Shown here one piece after another: positions 5,766 to 38,742 of a stretch of 41,017 bases of DNA; within the stretch, counting starts at the first letter, position 1; every line of letters begins with the position of its first letter. The position numbers and the translations under genes are program-made. Source of the DNA: a virus; IMG/VR virus record IMGVR_UViG_3300032020_000022, positions 1 through 41,017 of that record. One strand, given 5' to 3'. The notes under the pieces were generated by a model, which searched no databases, was not told the DNA's origin, and saw only the letters and a program-made list of their open reading frames with translations.

Positions 5766-6002
5766 TTACTCAAAATCCCTATAACTGACTAAACCCCTTA
5801 CTCCATTTATCTGGCTCCAATCGGTTGGGAACTTTCTAACATCATGGCAATACTTACAGGTGAAATAACCACTTTTATATAATTCCAGAGTTTGGGTTAG
5901 TTGAATCCAATAATGAGCCCCTGTAGGAGATTGGTTGCATTTCCAAACCTCGGATTTAATGTATTCCTCATCACTTTTGATTATACCAGCTTTTCTACCC
6001 AT
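5766..6002 (-). CDS. Zinc-binding phage protein, 78 aa
   Basis: Contains KCNQSPTGAHYW (residues about 21-32) and CKYCHDVRKFPT (about 49-60). A CxxSPTGAHxW element followed by a CKYC knuckle and a +-F-P-T tail is a recurring pattern in small phage proteins, probably forming one zinc site from C22, H29 and the CxxC pair. Function unknown. It overlaps the 146-aa gene by 22 bases and is the last gene of the 6830-5766 transcript. Confidence 0.78.
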   Translation of the reverse strand: MGRKAGIIKSDEEYIKSEVWKCNQSPTGAHYWIQLTQTLELYKSGYFTCKYCHDVRKFPTDWSQINGVRGLVSYRDFE

Positions 6003-6421
6003 GATTTAGGTATCCCTCCAAGTATAGCCATATCCAACATTATCTCAACCATTTGCCTATCCAACCTAGCCTCAATCAATACATTATCTGGGTAGCCAGC
6101 CTTAATCTTTTTCTTCCTTTGCTCCAAAGCATGGAAGCGTCTAACCAACAGAAATCGTTTTCTCCTATCCTCATCACTCAAAGTTATCTTCCTACCACGC
6201 TTATGAGGAACAAATGGATTCCTGTTAAGATAATCTAATCCTTGGTCTACCCAGCATTGTGGGTGGAAATATTGGTAACTATTCCATTTTCTGGATTCAG
6301 GATTACCTTTATTCCAAAACACTACAGCTACCAGTGGGGTGCCAATCTCTATGGGTTGTTCACACCATCTACATTTAGCCTGCTTACGGCACCATCTCAT
6401 AGTAACATTCGGGATAGTCAT
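5981..6421 (-). CDS. Zinc-finger protein, 146 aa (PARP-finger-like N terminus)
   Basis: N-terminal WCRKQAKCRWCEQPIEIG, then a Trp-rich strand and YFHPQCW, give a C-x2-C ... H-x2-C arrangement like PARP-type or treble-clef fingers (about residues 11-57). A basic helical C-terminal half follows (LVRRFHALEQRKKKIK). Nucleic-acid binding is likely. The start overlaps the stop of the 59-aa gene (ATGA). No strong ribosome binding site, so coupling is probable. Confidence 0.72.
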   Translation of the reverse strand: MTIPNVTMRWCRKQAKCRWCEQPIEIGTPLVAVVFWNKGNPESRKWNSYQYFHPQCWVDQGLDYLNRNPFVPHKRGRKITLSDEDRRKRFLLVRRFHALEQRKKKIKAGYPDNVLIEARLDRQMVEIMLDMAILGGIPKSWVEKLV

Positions 6422-25137: not shown

Positions 25138-25350
25138 ATGCCGATGGCAGTGGATAATTTAACACCTGATAGTTCAACCGTAGCCATCAGGGATGCTATC
25201 TCCGCCTCAATACAACAATGTATGACTGAGCCAATCCCAGAGGGCTATGATGTTCAGGAAAGTAATAAACAAAAATGGTGTAGTGGAAAAGTCTATGGGA
25301 TTGCCCGTGATAAAACTGGAAAATCCCTAAATGAAGGTAGACAACAGTGA
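25138..25350 (+). CDS. Small structural-region protein, 70 aa
   Basis: Begins MPMAVDNLTPDSSTVAIRDA, with QKWCSGKVYGIARDKTGKSL near the C terminus. Mostly helical. Similar short proteins lie among head genes of other phages, function unknown. AGGAGG at 25127-25132. The stop overlaps the start of the endonuclease gene. Confidence 0.68.
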   Translation: MPMAVDNLTPDSSTVAIRDAISASIQQCMTEPIPEGYDVQESNKQKWCSGKVYGIARDKTGKSLNEGRQQ

Positions 25351-25766
25351 AGGTGCTAAGTGATATACAGATTGGATATTTGGCTGGGATAATTGATGGA
25401 GAAGGTTTTATTACCTTAACCAAATCACCAGATAGGCAAATGCAACCTAGAGTTGGTATTAGTAATACTGACCTTGACCTAATGAATACTATAGCCGATT
25501 GGGTCGGTGATGCTAATATACTAAGAGAATCCAAAGGTAGTAATAGGCAGAAGGATGCTTTTAGGATTCAATGGCAAGGTAGAGCCAAAATTCTGGAAAT
25601 CCTTGAGTTTATTGAGCCTTATCTTATTGTTAAGAAGGCACATGCCCAATTAGTTATAGCATGGATAAAATTCCGAATGAATGGTTATTCTGAAATTGAT
25701 TTGGGTAATGGTTATATAAATGGTATAAGAGTCCTTAATATGAAGGGCAAAAAGGAGATGTTATAA
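25347..25766 (+). CDS. Free-standing LAGLIDADG homing endonuclease
   Basis: 139 residues with a single LAGLIDADG motif at 11-20 (YLAGIIDGEG); single-motif enzymes act as homodimers. The C-terminal half (AHAQLVIAWIKFRMNG) fits the family. GTG start overlaps the previous stop by four bases and its stop overlaps the next ATG, so it has been inserted neatly between two structural genes without disrupting either. Selfish function; the recognition site is probably a homologous late-operon locus. Confidence 0.88.
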   Translation: MKVLSDIQIGYLAGIIDGEGFITLTKSPDRQMQPRVGISNTDLDLMNTIADWVGDANILRESKGSNRQKDAFRIQWQGRAKILEILEFIEPYLIVKKAHAQLVIAWIKFRMNGYSEIDLGNGYINGIRVLNMKGKKEML

Positions 25767-36979: not shown

Positions 36980-37456
36980 TTATTCCTCCTGTTGATATAG
37001 TAATCCTTTTGGACAAAAATGACTTACATCACAATAACCTTTACATCTTGCTCCTTCCCAACATTCCCTATCATTACAAGGGGTATCATACCTTCCGTTG
37101 AGTAATGCTGATGTAAGTTGGATGGTTTTAAGATTGAAGTATTCATTGACTTGGTTATTATCCAATTTCCTAATTGGTATTCTGTAAGTATTCCTAGTGA
37201 TACCTCTTGATGTGGCTATGGCTAATCCACCATCCCTAACAGTAACTTGTAACTGCATCCTGCCAATAGTTATTCCTCTCTCCTCCAACATTATCCTGTA
37301 GCGGTTGAGTTGCATTTCCTCTTCCCAATTATCTGCCTTGTCAACCATTTGCTGGAATACTGGCACCATCTTAGGGTCTCCAGCCTTGCCCCACTTACCT
37401 GATGAACGGTATAATCTCGGCACCATTTCAGTTCCACATTTAGGACACTTTGGCAT
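36980..37456 (-). CDS. Cas4-like PD-(D/E)XK nuclease, C-terminal half (split gene)
   Basis: 158 residues: WEEEMQLNRYRIMLEERG (44-61) holds the RecB-family QLxxY motif, then MQLQVTVRDGGLAIATSRGI. A Cys cluster follows (C127, C132, C138, C142, C148), resembling the iron-sulfur region of Cas4-like nucleases. The catalytic D/DYK residues are missing because they lie in the 157-aa product encoded at 37907-38380; an HNH gene sits between the halves. The new N terminus MPKCPKCGTEM carries a CxxC knuckle. Probably works with the other half in trans. Nearby GGAG motif before the ATG is weak; coupling to the HNH gene is likely. Confidence 0.78.
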   Translation of the reverse strand: MPKCPKCGTEMVPRLYRSSGKWGKAGDPKMVPVFQQMVDKADNWEEEMQLNRYRIMLEERGITIGRMQLQVTVRDGGLAIATSRGITRNTYRIPIRKLDNNQVNEYFNLKTIQLTSALLNGRYDTPCNDRECWEGARCKGYCDVSHFCPKGLLYQQEE

Positions 37457-37907
37457 TTAACTCCTCCATAGCCTTATTGTAGCCAGCCTGGAGTCCCTCA
37501 CTATAACCTAATGTATAGCTAGGACTATGCTTTTTCCTTTCAATAACTCTAAGGTTTTCTGGTCTGTTATCTAACTTATCACCATTGATATGGTGAACTA
37601 TCTCATTAACTTTTAATGGTCTACCTAGAACTTTCTCCATGATTAACCTGTGTTCTAAATACCGTTTGCCTTTTATTCTTGTAGTCATGTAACCAAAGTT
37701 ATTGACATGCCTTCCACCTTTCCATGTAGGATGATGTTCATTACTTTGTATCCTCTTACCCAGTATTAGAGCCATTGAATATTTACCTGCACATGACCTA
37801 CAAAAACCAATATATTTTGGGTTATTCAGTAAATCTTTCCTGACAGGTCTGATTTTACCACACAGTATACATGGTTCATCTACATAATATTTGGTATGTG
37901 TTGCCAT
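37440..37907 (-). CDS. HNH homing endonuclease
   Basis: 155 residues. Zinc finger CILC...CRSC (13-39), then HPTWKGGRH, EHRLIMEKVLGRPL (85-98) and NEIVHHINGDKLDNRPENL (101-119) with H105, H106, N108 and N114 of the HNH site; the C terminus has a small helical DNA-binding repeat. The start overlaps the stop of the nuclease N-terminal half (TAATG) and its end overlaps the start of the C-terminal half by 17 bases. It has been inserted into the nuclease gene, splitting it. Confidence 0.92.
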   Translation of the reverse strand: MATHTKYYVDEPCILCGKIRPVRKDLLNNPKYIGFCRSCAGKYSMALILGKRIQSNEHHPTWKGGRHVNNFGYMTTRIKGKRYLEHRLIMEKVLGRPLKVNEIVHHINGDKLDNRPENLRVIERKKHSPSYTLGYSEGLQAGYNKAMEELNAKVS

Positions 37908-38380
37908 TATTTATCTCCTGGGCTACAGTGCGGACAATAGTAGTCTGGTTGTTTACCAACTTCAACTATACCCAAAGCTCTGGCTACCCTATAGCTACCC
38001 CATAGTTTATAATCGGTAAGGACTAAATGACCATCCTCCAATTCTAATAGGTCAAATATATCCCTATCAATACTGAGGGCTATTTCTGCTGGTAATCCTA
38101 GTTCCTTAGCAGCCAATTCTAGCTGTTGATGGTGCCTAATACCTGCCAACATAAAGGCACGCTTATCAGGATTAACCGTGTAGGGTTGGGTCAGTTTGAG
38201 GAACTCCATCATGGTGCCATTAAGTAGTTGGGTAGTGCTAGGAACTCCTTTCCATTCCCGTTCTGTGGATATGATGGTTAATGTTGGTAGTGTAAGACAC
38301 CGTTCATCCATTCGGCATTTGGATAAACAATCCTTGATTGGGATTATTTTATTATCTGGACATTGGAACCATTCTAACAC
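37907..38380 (-). CDS. Cas4-like PD-(D/E)XK nuclease, N-terminal catalytic half (split gene)
   Basis: 157 residues, GTG start with AAGGAG upstream. N-terminal Cys region FQCPDNKIIPIKDCLSKCR...RC, then PSTTQLLNGT, GIRHH (H83/H84), FDLLELEDG (D110) and VLTDYKLWGSY (D123, K125): the full PD-(D/E)XK catalytic set. Intact relatives continue into the QLxxY/Cys region that is here encoded separately at 36980-37456. This half ends with a CPHC knuckle and stop right at the HNH gene. The enzyme likely resects or trims DNA ends for the neighbouring recombination proteins. Confidence 0.8.
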   Translation of the reverse strand: MLEWFQCPDNKIIPIKDCLSKCRMDERCLTLPTLTIISTEREWKGVPSTTQLLNGTMMEFLKLTQPYTVNPDKRAFMLAGIRHHQQLELAAKELGLPAEIALSIDRDIFDLLELEDGHLVLTDYKLWGSYRVARALGIVEVGKQPDYYCPHCSPGDK

Positions 38381-38399
38381 AGTTAATCTCCTTTTATTC

Positions 38400-38742
38400 T
38401 CCTTCTAGGATGAGGGCTGGGACTAAGCTGATTTCTCAGGGGTAACCCAGACTGATTCAGCTAACAAGGATTAACTGTCCTCCGCTACTCAGACCCATTT
38501 ATCAATGGTGCAATTCTTTCTGCCATCCTCACCCTAGCTTTGCCTGAGCCTACTCAGCTTAAAAAAGAATTTCGGCTCAGGCTCTTGCCAGCTAGTGCCG
38601 TAACTTCGCCCACTTTCGCTTACGGAGTCTTTCATCCGCAGCTTGCTGCCCTTTCAGGTAGCTGGCAAGCTCGCTGGCTCGGCAAACTTCCCCTGTTTCT
38701 ACGCCGATACTCTCAGGACACCAGCGAGCATTTATTTAGTTG
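38400..38742 (-). ncRNA. Candidate structured RNA, about 340 nt
   Basis: Gene-free interval inside the early operon, more GC-rich than its neighbours and packed with long stems. Plus-strand positions: 38405-38415/38527-38537 (11 pairs, one G-U only if the minus strand is the RNA); 38542-38550/38574-38582 (9); 38584-38594/38659-38669 (11) enclosing 38598-38603/38620-38625 (6) and 38638-38642/38645-38649 (5); 38669-38677/38721-38729 (9) enclosing 38679-38683/38703-38707 (5); small stems 38495-38499/38504-38508 and 38426-38431/38457-38462. On the minus strand GAAA loops occur at 38612-38619 and 38649-38658. It does not match tRNA, tmRNA or RNase P signatures I know. Confidence 0.65.

Follow-up and report, generated by a model that had tools for sequence, protein, structure and literature searches.

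HNH homing-type elements that interrupt a Cas4-like phage nuclease probably carry a split zinc ribbon of their own

How can a protein-coding gene tolerate an inserted gene that cuts its product in two? The question is raised by a 41-kb virus record (IMGVR_UViG_3300032020_000022, of which positions 1 to 41,017, the whole stretch analysed, are called the window here). Three minus-strand frames overlap end to end in this record, namely the first half of a nuclease gene (piece A), an HNH endonuclease gene and the second half of the nuclease gene (piece B), and a cysteine pair stands at each broken end. We analyzed where these cysteine pairs came from, whether the two halves still have the features of one nuclease and whether the arrangement recurs in other genes.

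Layout of the interrupted nuclease gene

Piece A (37907-38380, minus strand; 157 aa, GTG start) consists of the N-terminal half of a Cas4-like PD-(D/E)XK nuclease and an 11-residue tail that is attributed to the inserted element. H84, D110 and D123-Y-K125, the catalytic residues that the original prediction had placed on this piece, are present together with the N-terminal cysteines 18, 22 and 28. The tail (residues 147-157, YYCPHCSPGDK; 37910-37942, minus strand) contains a CPHC knuckle (37925-37936, minus strand), is lacking in intact relatives and is ordered in the read-through model described below. Piece B (36980-37456, minus strand; 158 aa, ATG start) consists of a 14-residue head and the C-terminal half of the nuclease, with the expected QLxxY motif (QLNRYR) and cysteine cluster (four invariant cysteines, 435, 446, 450 and 456 in read-through numbering). 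Its head, also attributed to the element and lacking in intact relatives (residues 1-14, MPKCPKCGTEMVPR; 37415-37456, minus strand), includes a CPKC knuckle (37436-37447, minus strand) whose code supplies the stop codon of the HNH gene. Thus the CPxC motifs noticed at the two broken ends are confirmed, as piece A ends in YYCPHCSPGDK directly before its stop codon and piece B begins with MPKCPKCGTEM.

The gene between the two pieces (37440-37907, minus strand; 155 aa) encodes an HNH_3 homing-type endonuclease with its own N-terminal CxxC/CxxC finger; it matched PF13392 (51.1 bits with a cut-off of 24.8; E=1e-13) and PHROG HNH families. It fills the gap exactly, as predicted, since the TAA of piece A and the ATG of the HNH gene have one base in common (TAATG) and the HNH stop and the piece B start overlap by 17 nt. 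Purine-rich AGGAG-like sites precede the HNH starts. In the window, judged from sequence context, a Shine-Dalgarno-like AGGAGA (37914-37919, minus strand) lies upstream of the HNH start within the code of the piece A tail, and a GGAGGAG (37461-37467, minus strand) lies upstream of the piece B ATG within the 3' end of the HNH gene. Thus, each frame can be translated independently.

Alignment of A and B to intact loci by tblastn showed that the whole insertion (37415-37942, minus strand) places 528 bp where the intact gene has 12 bp (PSGA/PTGA codons), i.e. an insertion of approximately 516 bp. Pieces A and B share one frame across the whole insertion in a one-frame translation. The host frame of the insert contains 14 stop codons, and the open host frame known from the ShiLan domain (see below) is not found here. 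HNH genes are often carried by introns and inteins, and a group I or II intron, or an intein, whose splicing restores the full-length nuclease was therefore also considered. We regard this explanation as hardly credible and rejected it in both forms: the HNH frame takes up all but about 48 bp of the insert and an Rfam search at E-values up to 10 returned no intron family or intron core RNA, while the 14 host-frame stops and the ends of 11 and 14 residues exclude an intein, for which no splicing domain was found either.

Three other features of the window were recorded. A 139-aa LAGLIDADG-type endonuclease frame (25347-25766, plus strand; PF00961, E-value 0.00027, just under the cut-off) stands among structural genes and is a second homing-type gene in this phage. 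The 362-bp non-coding stretch upstream of piece A (38381-38742, minus strand; GC 0.49) contains strong hairpins (folding z of -1.56, not significant) and short patches conserved in three related loci (L001, L002 and L007), and it gave no Rfam match. In addition, a 146-aa protein (5981-6421, minus strand) weakly matches the PARP/DNA-ligase zinc finger (PF00645, E-value 5e-5, below cut-off).

Intact relatives, conservation and predicted fold

The widest scan, after searches for which A, B and aligned intact relatives served as queries, comprised 61 related viral loci. Among them, 58 contained a single gene of ~290 aa that aligned in one continuous piece, the exceptions to the one-frame nuclease being L024, L162 and a frameshifted copy (L025/L151). 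Relatives lacking the HNH gene were not found to carry two separate genes; they have one intact gene, which upholds the proposal that a Cas4-like nuclease gene was split by the HNH gene. The frameshifted copy (L025:5594-5602 / L151:4594-4602, plus strand) is an intact-type relative whose frame shifts near residue 199, by decay or by an assembly error. Isolated phages with this nuclease were also sought, and tblastn found no match among 50,697 records.

Residues 1-146 of piece A match the intact relatives with an identity of up to 79 %, and residues 15-158 of piece B with up to 69 %. The two matches lie four residues apart in the intact gene (12 bp in most close relatives), and thus the 11 residues of the A tail and the 14 residues of the B head arrived with the insert. 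In intact relatives the break site reads PSGA or PTGA, so both knuckles came with the insertion as well. The original prediction had offered a duplicated break point as the source of the two CPxC pairs. This was ruled out because intact relatives have no CPxC at all, and the DNA word shared by the two ends is merely the code for CPxC. By this sequence comparison, the CPxC pairs are assignable to the inserted element and not to the nuclease.

The catalytic H, D, DxK and Q motif of Cas4/RecB-like PD-(D/E)XK nucleases was found in the window halves: H84, D110, D123-x-K125 and Q357, together with seven cysteines (18, 22, 28, 435, 446, 450 and 456), are invariant in 34 sequences including the window. 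These cysteines are candidate ligands of a four-Cys Fe-S cluster. One possibility is that the insertion inactivated the nuclease and that both halves are decaying. A close relative sharing the same split, which would be a sign of long persistence, was not found, and this agrees with decay. However, neither half contains a stop codon or a frameshift, each frame is preceded by a ribosome-binding site, and the window halves retain 65 of the 65 residues that are invariant among 19 intact relatives (64 of 65 in L024); a dead nuclease is accordingly very unlikely. The pN/pS of halves versus intact genes (0.25-0.32) is similar to that of intact pairs, although synonymous sites are saturated and the ratio cannot isolate the time since the split.

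When used singly, pieces A and B gave no convincing Pfam or PHROG family match. The best Pfam matches of the nuclease family were PF12705 (E-value 0.0063, in 5 of 19 members) and PF01930 (E-value 0.022), none clearly past the cut-off, and a sequence-profile search found no match among solved structures. A first model, of an intact relative, was of moderate quality (pLDDT 73.9) and had Exo5, Cas4 and AdnA as its best structural matches, at Z of 6-8 (top 7.9). A second, read-through AlphaFold model was made from the window's own chain as one polypeptide, with stops written as glycine and 33 homologues. In this model A 1-156 and B 306-466, plus residue 206, have a pLDDT of at least 50, a total of 308 residues reach at least 70, and the out-of-frame stretch 157-305 is nearly all below 50. 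The knuckle-bearing blocks have mean pLDDT values of 92, 88 and 91 even though no homologue covers them; the last two values belong to blocks 311-320 and 321-330, the head of piece B.

When both halves of the read-through model were compared with Cas4 SSO0001 by VIA-align, they matched with a Z of 14.0 (3.4 A over 188 residues, model residues 24-461), followed by AdnA (Z 11.2), Cas4-Cas1-Cas2 (11.1) and Exo5 (10.7); Foldseek E-values were not significant for this model or for that of the intact relative. Thus the halves are predicted to fold together into one Cas4-type domain, as had been proposed, when modelled as a single read-through chain. The window protein resembles Cas4, Exo5 and AdnAB-type nucleases in its fold, in its H-D-DxK-Q residues and in having conserved cysteines at both ends. 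Unlike them, it is a phage protein in two pieces, and its gene adjoins recombination and replication genes.

HNH insertions flanked by cysteine pairs in other genes

The same nuclease gene was found to be split in two further loci. In L024 a different HNH gene is inserted about 30 codons further upstream; the N-terminal part ends with EEWCCPECGHKEGE before its stop and the C-terminal part begins with MDGSQKPCPKCGKAM / MDGSQKPCPKCGKAMKVK. In L162, from a divergent phage, the nuclease is split near residue 44, where the N-terminal part ends with ITWKCPACGF and a few further residues before the stop (ITWKCPACGFTIQTQTIEGEQDA) and the C-terminal part begins with MGMKCPNCNINM / MGMKCPNCNINMRPV. The C-terminal half in L162 (L162:778-2751, plus strand) is part of a fusion protein that also has a Gp3-like recombination directionality-factor domain (PF18897, E-value 1e-38).

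CPxC is present in all six broken ends produced by three independent splits at three sites with three divergent HNH genes. The two CxxC knuckles of a zinc ribbon can be read across the break in the window (YYCPHC ... PKCPKCGTEM), and the other two splits also have CPxC at both ends; the match to Pfam Zn_Ribbon_1 was below the cut-off (E-value 0.063). The code of the downstream CPxC contains the HNH stop codon, which lies within it in the window and L024 (TGTCCTAARTGTGG) and at its end in L162. When six HNH proteins were compared, they had 29-50 % identity to the first of them. Each of the three breaks lies between two predicted elements of secondary structure. At two of the three sites natural length changes occur in relatives and the sites are indel-tolerant; L022 has 35 extra residues there and L027-L029 lack about 20.

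HNH genes with cysteine pairs on both flanks were also observed within six DNA methyltransferase genes, where they lie out of frame with the host. When the HNH frames of all retrieved loci were scanned geometrically, L045, L063 and L198 were found; L206 (Cloacimonadota) and L211 (Methylobacterium frigidaeris) came from genome contigs, and the sixth is L237 (Cupriavidus necator), in which the upstream pair is CxC instead of CxxC and the downstream pair is CxxC. The methyltransferase frame is open through the entire HNH gene in all six and always in the same relative frame. When the HNH codons were shuffled synonymously, the host frame stayed open in 0 of 20,000 shuffles in four cases, and in the two GC-rich cases in 0.0011 and 0.0004 of the shuffles. 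This far exceeds chance and indicates that the methyltransferase frame is probably kept open by selection.

Eight HNH frames were found in which the host frame is open throughout, six of them with cysteine pairs at both ends. Of the remaining two, L244 is an intein as judged from its sequence ends, and L110 (L110:2295-5405, plus strand) is a ShiLan-like out-of-frame HNH gene in a long open frame of unassigned function without cysteine pairs at its ends. Among 216 HNH frames, nine had CxxC on both flanks versus 1.9 expected under independent flanks, a control that is crude because its windows are wide. L228 and L354 also passed the cysteine filter, but they do not look like interrupted genes and were rejected as clasped insertions.

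Further scans were performed. In viral contigs, a pattern scan for an HNH motif with CPxC after it gave 26 stretches. These included L024 and L162, the rest being HNH genes with an internal CPxC or with unrelated neighbours, and a second scan of this kind (5 stretches) gave no further clasp. An HNH search in 50 related phages and the window (10 of 51 records matched) added one methyltransferase clasp, L198, and in 299 Pseudomonadota genomes (27 matches) no clasp was found beyond the genome of L211 itself. One phage contig (IMGVR_UViG_3300031772_002235; L198 and L161) carries both a nuclease relative and a clasped HNH gene in a methyltransferase. In addition, the methylase of EBPR siphovirus 2 (L364:501-2861, plus strand) has, judged from sequence, an intein-like insert at a different site; this methylase family is thus repeatedly targeted by several kinds of insertion.

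It could be argued that the ancestral proteins had a zinc ribbon in the loop concerned and that the conserved CPxC code was where the HNH gene homed in, between one knuckle and the other. A native zinc ribbon is indeed present at that place in some relatives of L206 and L198 (CPVC...CGC in the methyltransferase of Methanoculleus virus L4768, just before VLDPF), and therefore the element may have entered a zinc-rich loop in L045, L063, L198 and L206; such a history also agrees with the stop codon of the HNH gene being provided by CPxC code, as seen in both the window and L024. However, the intact nuclease relatives that were inspected have no ribbon at any of the three sites. The L211 site likewise lacks one in related methyltransferases that are uninvaded; in phages DMCA, Pat3 and EBPR these read LVTPPGGxVLDPF or VMDPF, without cysteine. 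The methyltransferase of Mantra reads LVTPPNGVVLDPF and an HNH-less homologue in the L206 genome reads AGCPEDGIVLDPF. Judged by these comparisons, the nuclease cases and L211 do not favour entry into a pre-existing zinc-rich loop, which we consider quite unlikely, and it is most simply assumed that the knuckles of the nuclease gene and of L211 arrived with the insert. As one possible history, the element may have originated in a native ribbon of this kind and taken the ribbon along.

Another explanation is the plain insertion of a free-standing homing endonuclease gene, in which the CPxC tails are incidental and the halves either reassemble by the native fold alone or do not reassemble. HNH genes that split phage genes are known, i.e. 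nrdA of Aeromonas phage Aeh1 and gene 60 of T4 (PMC2988022), split proteins can reassemble without zinc, and hidden HNH genes without cysteine clasps exist (ShiLan in Mantra, and L110). Incidental tails are nevertheless difficult to reconcile with CPxC in six of six tails at independent splits by divergent HNH genes, with cysteine pairs on both sides of six methyltransferase inserts, and with the confident ordering of both tails in a model where no homologue covers them. We thus consider a plain insertion unlikely.

The proposed split zinc ribbon and known insertions

The explanation that we prefer, and consider probable, is that a split zinc ribbon is brought along by a homing-type HNH element, which clasps with it whatever it interrupts. 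A mobile element, neither intron nor intein, would have inserted in a permissive surface loop of the Cas4-like nuclease. Its ends, read in the host frame, would be the two knuckles (CPxC ... CPxC) of one zinc ribbon, and the HNH gene would lie between these knuckles in a different frame. The nuclease would be made as two chains, the first ending with one knuckle and the second beginning with the other, and each open frame would be translated from its own ribosome-binding site. One zinc ion, coordinated at the break by four cysteines (two per chain), would keep the associated halves in native register; with this clamp the nuclease would stay usable, presumably active, and the insertion would be tolerated. 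In the methyltransferases the chain would remain uncut and the out-of-frame HNH stretch would form a long loop whose base is closed by the ribbon. The patchy distribution of the HNH genes is consistent with homing, which we infer to be active.

The original prediction of a split nuclease with a likely zinc staple is thus likely right in substance, and the staple idea is strengthened by its recurrence. What is changed is its ownership, as the sequences suggest that the staple is part of the mobile element and is met again in genes unrelated to the nuclease. A wider claim would be that these elements form a distinct class, i.e. HNH homing genes with their own zinc ribbon, nested between its knuckles and clasping any interrupted protein, be it in two chains (the nuclease) or in a single chain from which a loop is extruded (the methyltransferases). 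We lean towards this claim, but only slightly.

Two kinds of known insertions are close to those described here. In Aeromonas phage Aeh1, nrdA is split by the HNH gene mobE and the split enzyme is active, and gene 60/39 of T4 with mobA is a parallel to it (PMC2988022). As in the window, an HNH homing gene splits an enzyme gene of Aeh1 into two frames and relatives have one gene. The Aeh1 and T4 examples are single cases in other host genes, whereas the clasp of the window recurs in several host genes. Crona et al. reportedly described in 2011 that the assembly domains of Aeh1 are derived from the mobile element, and these domains are not known to have been described as zinc-ribbon halves.

The ShiLan domain is an out-of-frame HNH domain in a phage DNA methylase whose host frame stays open, without signs of an intron or intein (Arsenault et al. 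2025; PMC11855218). Zinc fingers are mentioned in that paper only in the HNH frame, and a harmless loop is all that it suggests for the insert. The six methyltransferase cases are like ShiLan in having a hidden HNH gene and an open host frame. However, in the ShiLan example Mantra the insert is at another site and the host frame lacks a clasp of cysteine pairs, and the window differs from ShiLan in that stops close its host frame and two chains result. As the hidden HNH genes of Mantra and L110 have no clasp, the clasp is not needed for persistence.

Split inteins offer a further comparison. Dassa is said to have described, in 2009, fractured genes whose halves carry split inteins and flank a homing endonuclease gene. 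Such genes are like the window in having an endonuclease gene between the halves and element-encoded tails that join them, but intein tails are much longer and splice covalently, whereas the window tails of 11 and 14 aa would only bind zinc. In the open-access literature no account was found of such insertions being clasped by a zinc ribbon, subscription papers being mostly outside the scope of the search. Thus the zinc clasp appears to be new, while genes split by an HNH gene, like nrdA of Aeh1, and hidden HNH genes, like ShiLan, were already known.

A recurring split zinc ribbon borne by the element is a concrete and easily tested answer to the question raised by this locus. It would also offer protein engineers two natural tags, 11 and 14 residues long, by which the halves of a protein could be rejoined via one zinc ion. 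If the explanation is true, these elements would represent a third route, beside introns and inteins, to a tolerable insertion in a coding sequence, one that acts via metal coordination and not splicing.
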